Below, in pieces: positions 8,289 to 27,983 of a stretch of 33,349 bases of DNA. A program made the position numbers and the translations under genes. This DNA comes from a bacterium (GTDB lineage: Bacteria; Patescibacteriota; Patescibacteriia; Patescibacteriales; GWC2-42-12), in NCBI GenBank assembly GCA_030649205.1, contig JAUSGE010000042.1, forward strand, positions 1 through 33,349, read 5' to 3'. Position 1 is the stretch's first letter. Each line of letters starts with the position of its first letter. The notes under the pieces are model-generated. The model worked only from the letters and a program-made list of their open reading frames with translations. It searched no databases and was not told the DNA's origin.

Positions 8289-9872
8289 TTAACCCACCAC
8301 TTTCCCGCCGAATGTTTTTAGCAGATTATCAATCATATTCCCCTGCTCGCCCGGCGGCGGCTCCGGCGGCGCGGGTTTTTTTAAATCAACCGGCTCGTCT
8401 GACACCAGCTTATTGGGCGCCACGTCTAAATTTTCATCAACCACGGCTTCAATCGCAATCTGCGCGCCATAGACCTCGCGCAAAACTTTTTCTATGGCGT
8501 TTTTAATAGCCGCTTCGCTCACGCGGTCTTTATGGAATTTATATTTAAACGCCAAGCACAGCTGGTTGCCGGTTAAGTTCCGCGGCTGGCAAACGCGCAA
8601 GATAAAAGATAACGAATGGTTGTACTGCTTAACTTTGGCCAGGACCTCGTTCCATTTTTCCATAATTTGCTCATTGGTTATATTGATATTTTGGACGGCG
8701 CCCGGAGTCGCGGTCTGGGGCTTGGCCGCACTTAAGACACTCGGTGTCCTTGGGGACACCGAGTGTCCAAAAGCCGCGGGCGCGAGGCAAATTTCCACAA
8801 TCGCCATTTCCAATGATAACTGCGAAATAAAATCAGTTCTTAATTCGGCGCCGGCCTTAATAAATTTTTCCAAAAACTTAAGCGCCTGTTCCGCGGTCAA
8901 ATCGCCGGCCAGCTGGCTGATTTTCAGCTCCACGGCTTCGCCCATTTCCAGCGACAGCTTATCTAGCAGGCCGGAATTGATTTTTATCAGCAATAGCTTC
9001 CTTAAAATTTCAATCGTGTTTTTTATCAGCGTCTTAAGGTCAAGGCCGTTATCCATAGCCTGATTAAGAAGCCGGATAGCGCCGGCCGCGTCTTTCTTAA
9101 TCAATAAGCCTAGCAGATTGATAATTTCATTTAAATCCGAGCGCGGAATCACCAGCTCGGCTTCGGCTTGGGTTATCTCCGCGCCGCTAATGGCGATAAT
9201 CTGTCCCAGCAGGCTTTCCGCGTCGCGCATATGGCCGTCGGCATGGCGGGCGATGGTTTCTAAAATCCCGCGCTCCGCCTTAATGCCTTCGGCCTGGATG
9301 ATGTAGCTTAATTTTTTTACCGCGTCAGTCACGCTGATCCTTTTAAAATCAAAGCGCTGGCAGCGCGAAATAATCGTGGCCGGAACTTTATGGACTTCAG
9401 TCGTGCATAAAATAAAAATCACCGCGGCCGGCGGCTCTTCAATCAGCTTAAGCAAAGCGTTGAAAGCCGAGATTGACAGCATGTGCACCTCGTCAATGAT
9501 AAAAATTTTATATTTGGCTTTAGCCGGAGCGACGCGCGCGCTGGCGATCACATTATCGCGGACATTATCCACGCCCGTATTGCTGGCCGCGTCAATTTCC
9601 ATAATGTCCAAGGCCCGGCCTTCGGTTATTTCCTTACAGCTCGAGCAGGCGTTGCACGGATCGGCCGCGCCGCCCGCCCGCTGTTCGCAATTCACGGCCT
9701 TGGCTAAAACTCTGGCCAAGGTGGTTTTACCGACCGCGCGCGGCCCGCAAAATAGGTAAGCGTGCGCCAGCTGGCCGGTCTTAATTTCCTGCTCCAGAGT
9801 TATTTTTATGTGATTTTGGCCCACCACTTCGGTAAAGTTCTGCGGGCGGTATTTTCTGTATAATGTTGGCAT
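8289..9872 (-). CDS. dnaX: DNA polymerase III subunit gamma/tau (clamp loader ATPase)
   Basis: 527 residues. It begins MPTLYRKYRPQNFTEVVGQ, the standard DnaX start. Walker A GPRAVGKTT at about residues 43-51, zinc ligands C62, C73, C76 and C79, Walker B/DEVHML near 128, sensor ISRCQRFDFKRIS after. These make it the clamp-loader ATPase of the replication machinery. The C-terminal tail is proline-rich (KKPAPPEPPPGEQ) and ends LLKTFGGKVVG. Odd feature: about residues 368-379 (GHSVSPRTPSVLS) are encoded by a 32-bp palindromic element inserted in frame in the linker before the tau-like domain. Downstream of the conserved gene at 10018-10665 and upstream of tRNA-Gln. Confidence 0.96.
   Translation of the reverse strand: MPTLYRKYRPQNFTEVVGQNHIKITLEQEIKTGQLAHAYLFCGPRAVGKTTLARVLAKAVNCEQRAGGAADPCNACSSCKEITEGRALDIMEIDAASNTGVDNVRDNVIASARVAPAKAKYKIFIIDEVHMLSISAFNALLKLIEEPPAAVIFILCTTEVHKVPATIISRCQRFDFKRISVTDAVKKLSYIIQAEGIKAERGILETIARHADGHMRDAESLLGQIIAISGAEITQAEAELVIPRSDLNEIINLLGLLIKKDAAGAIRLLNQAMDNGLDLKTLIKNTIEILRKLLLIKINSGLLDKLSLEMGEAVELKISQLAGDLTAEQALKFLEKFIKAGAELRTDFISQLSLEMAIVEICLAPAAFGHSVSPRTPSVLSAAKPQTATPGAVQNINITNEQIMEKWNEVLAKVKQYNHSLSFILRVCQPRNLTGNQLCLAFKYKFHKDRVSEAAIKNAIEKVLREVYGAQIAIEAVVDENLDVAPNKLVSDEPVDLKKPAPPEPPPGEQGNMIDNLLKTFGGKVVG
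8736..8767. repeat. Palindromic element, family A, inside dnaX
   Basis: 14-bp arms GACACTCGGTGTCC and GGACACCGAGTGTC around a 4-nt centre. Each arm is itself an inverted repeat (GACAC-TCG-GTGTC). Read in frame by dnaX. Related copies: 15336-15365, 31675-31706 and, with different arm bases, 26672-26703. Confidence 0.85.
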
Positions 9873-15148: not shown

Positions 15149-16102
15149 TTATTGGAAATTAAAAATCTTTTTTATATCATCCAAATTCTCGGCTTTAACT
15201 AACTTCTTACGCAGTTCAGACGCGTTGTTTAGACCCGTAACATACCGGCACAACTGCTTTCGCATTTCTATAATCCCCTGCCTGCCTTTTAATTTTTCCG
15301 CCAGCTTGGCATGTTTTAACATAATTCCACGCCTAGACACCGAGTGTCCGCGGACACTCGGTGTCTTGCTTTTAACTTCTTCAAACACCCACGGCTTGCC
15401 CAGCGCGCCTTGCCCGATGCCAATTCCGTCCGCCCCGGTCTCAACCAACAGCTGATCAGCTGTTTTTTTGTCTTTAACTCCGCCATTAGCCAAAATCACG
15501 CCGGAAAAATATTTACGGGCTTGCTTGATTATTTTCGCGTCCACCTTGCCCGAATTACCCTGGGCCATACTGCGTCCATGAATCATAATCGCGGCCACGG
15601 GCAAATCTTTAATGGCTTTTAAAAAATCCACGGCTGTTGCCTCGCCGGCTCGCGAGCGGCATTTTAGGGAAACCGGCAAATCCGTACTAGCCAAGACCGC
15701 CTCCACGATCCGGCGCGCCAGTTTTAAATCATTCATCAGCGCCGCGCCCGCGCCCTGCTTAAGAACCTTTTTTACCGGACAGCCAAAATTAATGTCAATG
15801 CCTTGCGCCCTGATTTTCTTTTCCACAATTTTGGCCGCCGCGGCAAAATGTTCCGGCTTACTGCCGAATAATTGCACGACATAAGGCCGCTCTTTTTTAT
15901 CAAATCGCGCCAGCTCCAAAGTTTTTTTGGAATTATACGCTAAAGCCGCGGCGCTGATCATTTCGCTATAAACCACGTCCGCGCCAAAACTTTTGCAAAT
16001 TTGCCTAAACGCCGAATCAGCCACTCCAGCCATGGGCGCCAGGGCGTAAATTGGCTTTTTCAGCTTGAGCCAAAAATTTTTACTCGCTTGACAGCCATTC
16101 AT
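15149..16102 (-). CDS. dusB: tRNA-dihydrouridine synthase
   Basis: 317 residues, TIM-barrel FMN enzyme that reduces uridines in the tRNA D-loop. The start is followed by PIYALAPMAGVADSAFR, the family's N-terminal signature; SEMIS, YVVQLFGS and INFGCPVKKVLKQGAGAAL follow, with catalytic Cys108. Later motifs SLKCRSR, MIHGRS, ILANGGVKD and GADGIGIGQGALGKPW bind FMN and tRNA. DusB type is the best guess among subfamilies. Residues about 246-256 (TPSVRGHSVS) are encoded by a perfect 30-bp palindrome inserted in the variable linker before the C-terminal helical domain. Its 5' end contains the -35 box of the divergent diguanylate cyclase gene. Confidence 0.93.
   Translation of the reverse strand: MNGCQASKNFWLKLKKPIYALAPMAGVADSAFRQICKSFGADVVYSEMISAAALAYNSKKTLELARFDKKERPYVVQLFGSKPEHFAAAAKIVEKKIRAQGIDINFGCPVKKVLKQGAGAALMNDLKLARRIVEAVLASTDLPVSLKCRSRAGEATAVDFLKAIKDLPVAAIMIHGRSMAQGNSGKVDAKIIKQARKYFSGVILANGGVKDKKTADQLLVETGADGIGIGQGALGKPWVFEEVKSKTPSVRGHSVSRRGIMLKHAKLAEKLKGRQGIIEMRKQLCRYVTGLNNASELRKKLVKAENLDDIKKIFNFQ
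15336..15365. repeat. Palindromic element, family A, inside dusB
   Basis: Perfect 30-bp palindrome: GACACCGAGTGTCCG joined directly to its reverse complement. It matches the arms of the copies at 8736-8767 and 31675-31706 but has no unpaired centre. Read in frame. Confidence 0.88.
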
Positions 16103-16849: not shown

Positions 16850-16882
16850 ACCCCCTTTATCAAAGGGGGCTGGGGGGATTTT
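16850..16882. repeat. Family E element at the 3' end of cysS
   Basis: CCCCCTTTATCAAAGGGGG followed by CTGGGGGGATTTT. The hairpin arms CCCCCTTT/AAAGGGGG define the family. Its end overlaps the cysS stop codon. Other copies: 17763-17796, 18329-18361, 18423-18459. Confidence 0.8.
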
Positions 16883-18419
16883 ATTTCTTGACTATCCTCT
16901 GCCCGTCTTTCGCGTCTTCCACCGAGTAACCCAGACTCTCAATTTTTTTTCTTAATTCATCCGACAGCTTGAAATCTTTTTCTTCTCTGGCTTTCTGCCT
17001 GGCTTCAGCCAGCTTTTCAACTTCTTCCGGCAATTTCATTTTCTTAAGCGCACCCTTAAAATCCAGCCCCAGTACCTTATCAAAATCAAAAACCGCGGCC
17101 AGCTTTTCTTCGTCCGTCAGTTTGGATTTCAAAACCTCCTGAACTACGGCCAGCGCCCTGGGCGTATTTAAGTCGTCGTTAATCGCTGCCAAAAAAATTT
17201 CTTTAAAATCAATACTAAATTCGTCATCCCCGTGAAAACGGGGATCCAGAAATAATTTAACCTTAGCCATACGCTTTTCTGGATTCCTGCTTTCGCAGGA
17301 ATGACGGTGCTTTTCGGACAATCTGGCCGGGGTGAGGTCTCTAATCTGATTGCGCAAATGCTCCAATCCTCTCTCCGCCGACTTAATTCCAGCTTCACTA
17401 TATTCCATCGGCTTTCTATAATGAGTTTGCAAAAGCATGAACCGGTAAGCCAGCGGCTCTATCCCCTTTTTTATTAAAGCAGTTTCCAGCGCTAAAAAAT
17501 TTTCCGCCGACTTGGCCATTTTCTTGCCACCCGCGATATTTAAAAACGCGCCATGCAGCCAAAAATTAAAAAACTTTTTCCCTGTGGCCGCCTCGCTTTG
17601 CGCGATTTCGTTGGTATGATGTACATTGATATGATCAATACCGCCGCAATGGATATCCAGCTGGTTTTTCAGTAGCGCCAGGCTCATGGCCGAGCATTCA
17701 ATATGCCAGCCAGGAAAGCCGACGCCCCACGGACTGTCCCACTCCATCTGCCTGTTCTTTTTACCCCCTTTCTCAAAGGGGGTTAGGGGGATTTTAGGGG
17801 TTGAAAGCTTCCACAGCGCGAAATCGGTAGGATTTTTTTTCTCCTGATTTTTTTCCACGCGCGCGCCTTCTTTTAATTTTTCCAAAGGCAGATGGCTTAA
17901 CTTGTTATAGTTTCTGAATTTAGACGTGTCATAATAAATGCCGTCCGAAGTTTTATAGGTGTAGCCTTTTTTTTCCAGCTTTTTTATTAACTCAATCTGC
18001 TCTTTAATATAATCCGTAGCTTTGCACCAGATGTCTGGTTCCATAATATTCAGCCTCTTGATGTCGTAGCGAAAAGTCCGCGTATAAAATTCCGCGATTT
18101 GCCAGGCGGTTTTTTTCTCTTTTCTAGCTTCCATTTCCAGCTTGTCTTCGCCCATGTCCATGTCCCCGGTCAGGTGGCCGACATCAGTAATGTTCATAAC
18201 ATGCTTTACTTTATACCCATTATACAAAAGCGCGCGCTTTAAAATATCTTCAAACAAATAAGTTCGCAGATTGCCCAGATGCGCGTAATTATAAACCGTG
18301 GGTCCGCAGGTATATAGCCCGACTTTACCGCCCCCCTTCAAAAGGGGGGCAGGGGGGGGTATCGCCTTAAATTCTTCTTTTTTACGGGTTAAGGTGTTGT
18401 ATAGATATAATTTATTCAT
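16881..18419 (-). CDS. cysS: Cysteinyl-tRNA synthetase with three in-frame repeat insertions
   Basis: 512 residues. Class I synthetase charging tRNA-Cys. [18 protein letters not shown] holds the first zinc Cys38 and the HIGH-type motif HLGN (47-50); WHIECSAMS and [15 protein letters not shown] give the remaining zinc ligands and active site; KMSKS appears as KKMAKS near 299-303; the C-terminal helical region follows ([15 protein letters not shown]). Compared with the family's usual sequence, three loops are enlarged by palindromic repeats: [11 protein letters not shown] (21-31), [14 protein letters not shown] (about 208-220) and a 28-residue stretch around 371-399. All core motifs remain, so the enzyme should be active. 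Further family E copies flank both ends. Confidence 0.95.
17222..17306. repeat. Inverted pair of family C elements inside cysS
   Basis: One unit CGTCATCCCCGTG...GGGGATCCAGAA and an inverted partner TTCTGGATTCCTG...CAGGAATGACG about 20 bp apart, each with its own small hairpin. Translated in frame as part of the linker before the C-terminal domain. Same paired layout at 18902-18989. Confidence 0.82.
17763..17796. repeat. Family E element inside cysS (middle)
   Basis: CCCCCTTTCTCAAAGGGGG followed by TTAGGGGGATTTT. Encodes about [11 protein letters not shown] between the FALWK and WDSPWG motifs of the synthetase. Confidence 0.82.
18329..18361. repeat. Family E element inside cysS (N-terminal)
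   Basis: Variant CCCCCCTTCAAAAGGGGGG followed by CAGGGGGGGGT. Encodes [11 protein letters not shown] just before the first catalytic motif. Confidence 0.75.
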
Positions 18420-18422
18420 ATT

Positions 18423-18459
18423 TTTTCCCCCTTTATCAAAGGGGGTTAGGGGGATTTTA
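18423..18459. repeat. Family E element just upstream of cysS
   Basis: CCCCCTTTATCAAAGGGGG followed by TTAGGGGGATTTT, a few bases before the cysS start codon; it forms the untranslated leader. Confidence 0.8.
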
Positions 18460-25073: not shown

Positions 25074-27983
25074 TCATTTTTTAAACCACCGAACACTCAC
25101 TCCCCCCGCACCTGTGTCATCTTCGCCTTCGATCGGTTCTTTATTATGATCTGTAAACCACCCAACACTCACCCCCCCCTCTCCCCTCATCATCTCCGCC
25201 GGCTTGGCCAGAACTTCTTTTAAGTCAGAAATGTCATCAAACTTCATGGGCGCGCCGTCCGGCCGCTCCAATAAAGCCTGGCCGTCAGCGGAAAATGTCA
25301 TCATATAATTTTTTTCATTAAAACCTTTGGTGATATAATTTATAACTAAGTCGCCATTAGTTCTTCGTCCGGCAATCAGTTTATCAAAATCAGTTAGCTG
25401 ATCTTTCAGATGAAGCCGATCAAGCAAATCGCCCAAATTACGATCATCATTAGGATTGTCCCAAACTTTAATCAGCCTGGCGCTTGCGCCCGGATCCTTA
25501 ATGCCCTTAACCGCGTTGTAATACTTGTCTATTTGCTGTAAATTAATGTCTTCAGGCGCACTGTCATAAATTTCAAACCGCGCCTTAATTTCCGAATATG
25601 AAATTCCGGTTTTAAAGCCCCGGTCTTTGATAAATTCCAGCTTGTTCGTGTCCGCTGGCAACAGACCGCCTGGCTTAAATATTTCTATGCCTAATTTTCT
25701 GGCCTGACTCAATTCTATTTTGCCTTCAGCGGTATTTTCAAACTCTTGCAATCGGCTAGCCATTAAACTTTGAGCCAGCTGCTCCATCTTCAAACTGGTT
25801 TTTTCCATCTTTTCCTTGCCAAACATCTCTTCTATTTGAATGCCGCTGTATTTTTCCACAACCGCGCCTTGATGCCATATCACAACTTCATCGGCCCGGT
25901 AATCATTATTTTTATCAAGAATCTCCAGCAATAATTTTTCATCGGAATATTTGTCCGCTAAACTATATGCTTTTGGACTCTCCGCTAAGTCAGCGGGGCC
26001 TTTCACGCTCCTGGAATCGGCAAGACCCACCGCTTTATGCCATAGTCTGTCGTTATTAGGCTCGCCTCCAATTTTTTTCTGTATCCAATCATCATTTACC
26101 ATTAAATTATATTCCGCCGATGGGTCCGTCTCCCTTGAGCCAAGCTGTTCAACTAATCCAGCCGTTTTATCTTCCACCTCAACGCCGGATTTATCGGCCA
26201 CAGGCAGTAATTCTTTCTGCCCGGCTTCAGCCGGAGTTATTTTTGATTCAATCTTTGGCTTAACGCTTTCAGCATCAGCAACTTTCTTGCCCGAATGAAC
26301 ATACTCGTATTTGTTTATACTTTCTCCTCTTTTAACTAATTCAAAATTTCCGCCAACGTTTTTGTAATATTCCTTAACCGCTAACTCGCCATTTTCATCT
26401 CTTTCCAAAATATAAGCGACCTGGTCCGCCGGTCTAACCCTGATTTCTTTTCCTCCTGCCGAATCCACATAGCCCATTTTTTCTGCCAGCAAATGAGCCT
26501 GCCGCTGGGCGAATTTATTTATCTCGCGATGGTTATTCGCGTCGCCTTTAAATTTCAGCTCATCTTTATATTCGTTAAAATGAGCCTTGATTTGCTGATA
26601 CAGCGACTGCTCAATCCCCTTGCCTTTTTTTACCAGGCCGATTTCAATATCCTTTCGCTCAAGTTCCGCTGGACGTCCGACGTCCACTTGGACGTCGGAC
26701 GTCTTTTCAACATGCTGACCATTGGCGGGCTGTGCCACGGTCGTAGCGCCTACTGGTTTCACAACATTCGCGTCAGCTTTGATTACCGATCCGGGCGCTG
26801 GTTCCGCCGCATAATTCGTTTCACCGACATTTTCGTTTAAATTGTCTGCCCAGGCATTGCCAGCGCTAAAAAAATTTCCCACCGCGCCCATGCCTTTAAC
26901 CGCCGCTCCGCCGCCGGCTTTGGCCAGATGGCCGACTCGTCCGGGCAAAGCTTTGTATGATTCATAAGTTTTTTCAAGATTACCCGCGAAATTTTTTCCC
27001 ATGTCGGACAATGAAACTTTGCCTTCCAGCGTGTTTAATAAATTTTCCATGGCCTGGGCATTAAGACCCGGGTTATCTAATCCGGAATAGCCCAGGCCCA
27101 GATATCTCATAACTTTGCCGCCGGCCTTGATAAAATCCAGCCCTTTTTGCAAACCGGTTTTTTTGCCGCTCATGTCCTTAAATCTTAACTCGTCCCAGGT
27201 CTCGGTAAAACTGCCAGCCACCACATCTTTTAAAAAATTAACCTTTTCCTCTTGGCCTGACTTTTTTGACTTAACCCTGGCATCTTTGCTCAATCTGGAA
27301 TATCGCTCCACTCCATCCATAATGCCATAACTTACCCCCCTTAAGGCCATAGCGCCGCTAGCAAATAAAAAAGTATTCAAAGACTCGCGCGCCGCCTGAA
27401 TACCGGTTATTTTTGTCGTGGTATAGTCGTCCAAAATTTCAGTAATTTTTTCTTTTCTGGCCTGTTGGTCATTTTTTTCATTCACGCGGTTTTCCTTAAG
27501 CAATTTAGCCAGCATGTTTCTCTGCTCCGAGCCTTTTTGTCCGCCTTCTTTAGTGAGCTTAAGCCGGCCATTTAAATCGGCAATGGCCTGCCTAACGTCA
27601 GTATCTTGTTCAATATCAGATTCCGGCTCCGCGCCCAGCTGCCGCTCCTCTCGCATCTGCCAATTTTTGGCCAGTAGATCTTCCACCGAGCCTTCCAGGC
27701 CTTTGCCCTTGCCCATAATGCCGCGCACCACGAATCTTTCCCTGAAATATTCCGGCACATCATAAAAACTTTTAACGCCGGCAATTGACGCCGCGGTGCC
27801 GATAATGGTTTTGCCTGCCTGCTTTTGCAATTCCGGACTATCCTTAAATATAATGCCGGCTTGTTTAGCCGCCACGCCCCACTCTTTAATCTTGCCGTAA
27901 ATTCTGCCGGCGAATCCGGGCTCATCCGGTTGGCGCTCATCCGGCCAGCTTATGGCTTCATTTTTTAATTCAGCCTTATTCAT
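25074..27983 (-). CDS. Very large conserved protein of unknown function
   Basis: 969 residues, unrecognised as a family. No signal peptide. Long charged helical stretches at the N-terminus (1-330), a Gly/Ala-rich hydrophobic part near 350-380 (AGGGAAVKGMGAVGNFFSAG) that could touch a membrane, and a C-terminal region with Asp-rich, Asn-rich folded domains. The end carries two near copies of GGVSV-x-WF (GWF, then RWF), a small tandem duplication. Two palindromic elements are read in frame (26215-26239 and 26672-26703). It overlaps its 109-residue partner gene by 8 bp, so translation is coupled. Such giant unnamed proteins are frequent in this bacterial group; a cell-surface or secretion link is only a guess. 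Confidence 0.7.
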   Translation of the reverse strand: MNKAELKNEAISWPDERQPDEPGFAGRIYGKIKEWGVAAKQAGIIFKDSPELQKQAGKTIIGTAASIAGVKSFYDVPEYFRERFVVRGIMGKGKGLEGSVEDLLAKNWQMREERQLGAEPESDIEQDTDVRQAIADLNGRLKLTKEGGQKGSEQRNMLAKLLKENRVNEKNDQQARKEKITEILDDYTTTKITGIQAARESLNTFLFASGAMALRGVSYGIMDGVERYSRLSKDARVKSKKSGQEEKVNFLKDVVAGSFTETWDELRFKDMSGKKTGLQKGLDFIKAGGKVMRYLGLGYSGLDNPGLNAQAMENLLNTLEGKVSLSDMGKNFAGNLEKTYESYKALPGRVGHLAKAGGGAAVKGMGAVGNFFSAGNAWADNLNENVGETNYAAEPAPGSVIKADANVVKPVGATTVAQPANGQHVEKTSDVQVDVGRPAELERKDIEIGLVKKGKGIEQSLYQQIKAHFNEYKDELKFKGDANNHREINKFAQRQAHLLAEKMGYVDSAGGKEIRVRPADQVAYILERDENGELAVKEYYKNVGGNFELVKRGESINKYEYVHSGKKVADAESVKPKIESKITPAEAGQKELLPVADKSGVEVEDKTAGLVEQLGSRETDPSAEYNLMVNDDWIQKKIGGEPNNDRLWHKAVGLADSRSVKGPADLAESPKAYSLADKYSDEKLLLEILDKNNDYRADEVVIWHQGAVVEKYSGIQIEEMFGKEKMEKTSLKMEQLAQSLMASRLQEFENTAEGKIELSQARKLGIEIFKPGGLLPADTNKLEFIKDRGFKTGISYSEIKARFEIYDSAPEDINLQQIDKYYNAVKGIKDPGASARLIKVWDNPNDDRNLGDLLDRLHLKDQLTDFDKLIAGRRTNGDLVINYITKGFNEKNYMMTFSADGQALLERPDGAPMKFDDISDLKEVLAKPAEMMRGEGGVSVGWFTDHNKEPIEGEDDTGAGGVSVRWFKK
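26215..26239. repeat. Family B element inside the 969-residue gene
   Basis: Begins TTCTGCCCGGCT and ends AGCCGGAGTTA, identical to the units at 13871-13936. It is translated on the minus strand as about ITPAEAGQK. Confidence 0.85.
26672..26703. repeat. Palindromic element, family A variant, inside the 969-residue gene
   Basis: Arms GACGTCCGACGTCC (26672-26685) and GGACGTCGGACGTC (26690-26703), 4-nt centre. Same 14-4-14 layout and same inner symmetry (GACGT-CCG-ACGTC) as family A, with different paired bases. Encodes about TSDVQVDVGRP in frame. Confidence 0.8.

Follow-up and report, generated by a model that had tools for sequence, protein, structure and literature searches.

The window, that is, the whole stretch of 33,349 nucleotides that was analysed, is contig 37 of the host genome, that of a very small uncultivated bacterium (1.22 Mb, 50 contigs, 97.7% complete), and carries on its minus strand, at 16881-18419, the gene for cysteinyl-tRNA synthetase (cysS), an uninterrupted open reading frame of 512 amino acids. 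With the TIGR00435 model the product scores 416 bits against a cut-off of 340, which identifies it as a CysRS. A protein search of the genome with this enzyme gave 11 matches, and only cysS itself was matched over its full length; nine of the ten partial matches are confined to residues 334-413, where the S3 insert described below lies, and the remaining one is weak (E 3.6e-4). No second intact cysS was seen by this search in the 97.7%-complete assembly, in agreement with the first-pass annotation of this DNA, against which a second copy would have spoken. An Rfam scan of the window found one tRNA and nothing else.

Short palindromic repeats lie within cysS and at both of its borders. Three copies of a repeat that we call family E match CCCCCTTTNNCAAAGGGGGNNNGGGGGATTTTA exactly (16851-16883, 17764-17796 and 18427-18459, with none expected from 100 shuffles), all listed on the plus strand. 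The middle one, at about 17763-17796, forms insert S2 of the protein (11 residues, amino acids about 209-219). A diverged E copy at 18329-18361 (plus strand) forms insert S1, again of 11 residues (amino acids about 21-31); it has a longer G/C stem and matches the variant pattern with two mismatches, for which no match is expected by chance. The copy at 16851-16883 marks the 3' border of cysS, and its TTTTA end supplies, on the gene strand, the TAA stop codon of cysS (16881-16883). The copy at 18427-18459 marks the 5' border, just upstream of the start codon, and on the gene strand places GGGGG 7 nt before the ATG, possibly as the Shine-Dalgarno sequence of cysS. The duplex of this region with a typed 16S tail has an energy of -10.8 kcal/mol, the second strongest among 20 gene starts compared in the window, the other 19 ranging from -12.3 to +2.9 kcal/mol. 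In the nearest relative, L120, cysS is likewise preceded by an E-like copy, with a duplex energy of -10.3. The border copies may take part in both termination and ribosome binding.

The third insert, S3, is of composite origin. Its main part is a MITE-like element at 17216-17324, not assigned to either strand, that supplies 36 residues (amino acids about 366-402) and retains its right terminal repeat, CTTTTCGGACAATCT, the left one having been lost. Inside it are two copies of family C, a CGTC-type REP with the pattern CGTCATTCCTGCGAAAGCAGGAATCCAG, arranged as an inverted head-to-head pair 56 bp apart, one on the plus strand (17222-17252) and one in the opposite orientation (17276-17306); no match to either is expected by chance. 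Family C has 84 matches in the genome (control 0) and shows the CGTC end, a stem of 8-9 bp, a loop of 4-5 nt (stem and loop judged by eye) and the CCA-like tail of CGTC-tagged REPs. A sister family was matched in seven copies by a pattern one base longer. The C pair together with its middle was found again at C1:26485, C8:7041, C40:153, C40:39052, C43:4203 and C47:3287, with less complete occurrences at C17:3313 and C40:446, giving about eight further copies of the unit, several of which are bounded by AGACTGTCCGAAAA-like inverted repeats. The MITE ends AGGCTGTCTAAAAA stand 128 bp apart at C8:7016-7143, and a single end is present at C1, C40, C43 and C47. The element behind S3 has attributes of a MITE, namely terminal inverted repeats, several copies and no transposase gene. 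No full insertion sequence with these ends was identified in the genome, the ends being found only at the MITE copies and at single sites on C9 and C23. Adjoining the MITE is a 15-bp remnant of a further family, F, GACCTCACCCCGGCC (17325-17339, minus strand); nowhere else in the window does the start of F match with at most one mismatch. Since L120 carries a complete F hairpin at this very position, F would have arrived first and the MITE second, the reverse order being conceivable as well.

All five repeats that the first-pass annotation had placed in and around cysS are thus present, with pattern matches for the E copies and the C pair that are not expected by chance, and three of the five places are in frame within the open reading frame, as had been claimed. 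The two C copies are parts of one MITE-like unit, and the two unrelated families of that account give way to E, the MITE with its head-to-head pair of CGTC-type REPs, and the F remnant.

The inserts have left the hallmarks of the enzyme in place. Residues C38, C242, H267, E271, H47, G49, K303 and S304 are unchanged across 58 CysRS sequences, so that the catalytic motifs are retained as had been stated; the HIGH-like and KMSKS-like motifs of a functional CysRS are present together with the presumed zinc ligands, assigned as in the E. coli enzyme. With the inserts left out, cysS compared with that of L120 gives a dN of 0.129 and a dS of 1.536. Purifying selection acts on the gene, and this low ratio argues for a working enzyme. 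In an AlphaFold model (mean pLDDT 84.1), the core of which agrees with the structures 3sp1, 8qhp and 1u0b, all three inserts are in coil, in keeping with their proposed position in loops. The confidence falls below 50 within the inserts at residues 209-212, 217-219 and 366-402, and also outside them at 83-90 and 184-188.

The same loops were compared in 109 further CysRS from two collections, which gave 93 distinct sequences including the query. Where the query has 19 residues in the S1 region, most of the 93 have four; its S2 region has 23 residues against LWKFSPKGEKRQ or similar in most; and at S3 it has some 38-40 extra residues ahead of FSIDFKE. The loops are thus short, or 'empty', in most relatives, as the first-pass annotation had supposed. 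At least five extra residues are found at S1 in 3, at S2 in 16 and around S3 in 29 of the 93, many of the S3 ones not being palindromic. A fourth length-variable place is core column 408 (16/93), and the termini and single places account for the rest. L083 has a 53-residue insert elsewhere, after core column 88.

What fills these loops differs from one relative to the next. In L120, S1 is empty, S2 holds E and S3 holds F; F fills both S1 and S2 in L121, whereas in L119 it is present at S1 and, inverted, at S3; and E-like inserts occupy S2 in L122, L125 and L129. The S2 insert of L097 is a GTCATCCTGAGC..GAAGGATCT repeat with four matches in its genome, those of L134, L089 and L113 are of a TTCGAC..GCTCAGGG type, that of L134 occurring at three places, and other relatives carry further palindromes at the same loops. 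The pattern of the S2 insert of L126 occurs once in its genome and by that pattern is no repeat. The refuting outcome named by the first-pass annotation, distant CysRS having these residues unrelated to any repeat, was encountered in a different form only: the relatives hold palindromes of other kinds at these loops, some of which are proven repeats of their genomes and most of which are not so proven. What S3 contains in L122, L121, L132, L136, L134 and L123 is not palindromes but near-tandem repeats of AT-rich sequence (GGAATTAGGAATTATGAATTAGG; AAAACTCAAAACTC). With labels assigned by eye, S2 is filled in 21 of the 93 rows, 13 of which (L137, L070, L126, L133, L064, L089, L113, L094, L099, L062, L123, L135 and L071) carry inserts not proven as genome repeats. 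With the loops excluded from the tree, and with the same labelling by eye, the filled or empty state of S2 changed at least 17 times, that of S1 three times and that of the S3 palindromes six times.

F and E extend well beyond cysS. F is found in the cysS of genomes G004, G017 and G035, which have 21, 25 and 18 copies in all; any F is present in 24 of 61 genomes and none in 37, and G051 has 20 copies with none in cysS. Exact E occurs in 20 of the 61 genomes, at 33 places in the host, 28 in G004, 30 in G012, 40 in G044 and just 2 in G009, from which L122 comes. The S2 elements of the query and L120 are 97% identical, against 77% for the aligned gene and 86% for the local surroundings, and only 1 of 437 12-codon windows is as similar, which hints that the two elements may have arrived separately or undergone conversion.

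In the host genome E matched 42 times on the forward and 44 times on the reverse strand, most places being hit on both, and a reversed-pattern control gave 0. When open reading frames were called simply (at least 150 amino acids, copies at least 60 nt from the ends), E copies lay inside them in 15 of 28 cases in the host, 8 of 22 in G012 and 7 of 22 in G004, and family C in 2 of 30; random positions fall inside in 68-74% of draws, so that E in genes is rarer than chance. The host frames include those of LeuRS, UvrB (two copies), MurD, a glycosyltransferase, a methyltransferase and a DUF4012 protein, and cysS is accordingly one case of many in this genome; three of the ten scanned frames matched no family, or one under the cut-off only. 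In G012 the list comprises RsmA/KsgA, UvrD/PDDEXK (two copies), UvrC, UvrA and a glycosyltransferase, and in G004 PorB, SecA, a UvrD-like protein, DusB, CysRS and one frame without a match. As a raw count, 7 of the 30 copies inside reading frames in the three genomes are in UvrA, UvrB, UvrC or UvrD-like proteins. At L025 (1460-1560) E occurs twice, 41 nt apart, in a UvrB frame just past the match to the UvrB interaction domain. By eye, the spacer that follows the hairpin is mostly TTA or CTA outside reading frames and often TAA, GTA or CTG inside them; TTA would create a stop codon in one frame that is in use.

DusB is a second gene with the CysRS pattern of different families in one loop, since the loop after FEEVKS holds family D in the window and family E in G004. 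The D palindrome, GACACCGAGTGTCC / GGACACTCGGTGTC, lies at 15336-15365 on the minus strand and is read in frame in the dusB frame (15149-16102). Another GACACCGAGTGTCC palindrome is at 8731-8768, in frame near residue 369 of the reading frame 8289-9872, which we take to be dnaX, the gene for the gamma/tau subunit of DNA polymerase III.

We propose, with a probability of roughly 0.85, that these are mobile short palindromic repeats whose in-frame copies have been kept in tolerant loops and translated. The identity of the repeats, their copy numbers, their open in-frame reading and the short loops of relatives are observed directly. E, F, D, the CGTC-type C and the C-bearing MITE would be non-autonomous elements, mobile now or formerly in the host and its relatives, presumably by means of a transposase, and would insert within genes and between genes alike. 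In-frame, stop-free copies in tolerant loops would survive and become protein, probably without effect on fitness, and the remaining intragenic insertions would be purged. The tolerant loops of CysRS would be two turns, one preceding the CGPTVYN region and one following LWKFS, and the linker that leads into the helical domain; being tolerant, they would be refilled repeatedly by the family active in the lineage concerned, and inserts may come to adjoin one another, as F and the MITE do in S3. A more far-reaching version, which we offer tentatively and consider doubtful, is that the mobile element E has adapted to existence within genes, with in-gene copies free of stops in the frame used, a spacer that often has TAA in place of TTA, and border copies giving a stop and a ribosome-binding motif, and that a few loops of housekeeping proteins act as permanent docks at which selfish repeats succeed or invade each other and so keep supplying new protein segments.

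That the hairpins go untranslated, through ribosome bypass or removal from mRNA or protein in the manner of mobile bypass elements and introns, is hardly credible here. The repeats are indeed short hairpins, and the genes that contain them are essential; some mitochondria, moreover, have hairpins that the ribosome bypasses. But a removed element need neither hold the frame nor avoid stops, and where open runs of at least 60 codons in the same frame flank E on each side, it is read through stop-free in 30 of 30 pairs from three genomes. The strongest frame-shift pair, at L253 (495 + 294 codons), proved to be two separate genes, and in the other such pairs at least one of the two runs is only 60-86 codons long. 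Bypass or excision of E was not supported by these pairs.

The loops could also be filled through a preference of the elements for a DNA target rather than through selection on the protein, and unrelated S2 inserts do replace the same 3-5 codons after LWKFS. We regard this as unlikely, since, by eye, the sites are common to unrelated families with different ends and the flanks of E in the host genome show no clear consensus. It would be less likely still that the inserts are adaptive and confer a new regulatory or binding property on CysRS, as their repeated retention and the Shine-Dalgarno-like motif that E gives upstream of cysS in the host and L120 might suggest, because the insert sequences vary among relatives, most of which have none, and S3 and part of S2 are modelled with the very low confidence of disordered loops.

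In kind, the repeats here match Rickettsia palindromic elements (RPEs) and intragenic REPs; palindromic repeats read in frame are already known from Rickettsia and some other bacteria. As the passages cited describe them, RPEs and their Wolbachia counterparts are palindromic repeats that conserved genes carry in frame, with lengths of 105-146 bp or about 150 bp, and include one repeat-bearing product, guanylate kinase, for which translation and activity were demonstrated (PMC2229807, PMC10969869). The likeness drawn by the first-pass annotation is sound, the repeats here also being palindromic, in frame and in conserved genes. However, E is about 33-38 bp against the 105-150 bp given there, several unrelated families share one loop, and the host belongs to another phylum, its nearest named relatives being Parcubacteria/Falkowbacteria records. 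Family E is therefore RPE-like and no RPE, set apart by host and length.

Intragenic GTAG- or CGTC-tagged REPs favour DNA repair genes (uvrA, uvrB, UvrD/REP), and those in recB occupy nearly matching positions in two species of Xanthomonas, according to the part of a 2013 study cited here (PMC3733652). Family C resembles these REPs in its CGTC tag and head-to-head pairing, and the raw counts of E in uvrA, uvrB, uvrC and UvrD-like frames recall the lean towards repair genes. Unlike the REPs described there, E and F lack a GTAG or CGTC tag (neither tetranucleotide ends E in 28 copies aligned in register), the hosts are Patescibacteria, and among the 93 sequences compared a single loop is occupied by several families. 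The cited part of a review (PMC2229807) covers MITEs that contain open reading frames, such as ERIC/RU and NEMIS. S3 likewise stems from a non-autonomous element with terminal repeats that is read in frame, but differs from these in having a REP pair as its core and in adjoining the remnant of another element.

Among titles and the starts of abstracts, with subscription journals thinly represented, we found no report of in-frame palindromic repeats in Patescibacteria. What is new is the clade, family E and the fact that several families have repeatedly used a single loop. The setting is one of small, reduced genomes and of essential enzymes encoded by single-copy genes, in which one loop has been filled many times over by independent events. 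It offers a natural experiment in the insertion tolerance of protein loops and in the passage from selfish DNA to protein sequence, since such DNA appears to end up as a part of enzymes that the cell cannot do without. For annotation and structural work on Patescibacteria genomes it also calls for caution, as repeat-encoded peptides recur in unrelated proteins.

No transposase could be tied to E, the two RAYT-like (PF01797) genes each adjoining other palindromes. In one of them, at L038 (G000, C33), a GGACACTCGGTGTCC..GGACACCGAGTGTCC palindrome lies at the start of the matched domain, at about 1460-1500 and apparently in frame, and a second copy lies just past the end of the gene. The other, at L037 (G000, C41; 1-840), is located between CTCCGGCTAAAGCCGGGTAGAA repeats with a GTAG tag, and gene and repeats are likely to be a REP/RAYT pair. 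A CCCGGCTTCAGCCGGAG repeat of the kind found beside this C41 gene is present in the window at 26194-26240, where it is read in frame as ITPAEAGQKE in the reading frame 25074-27983.
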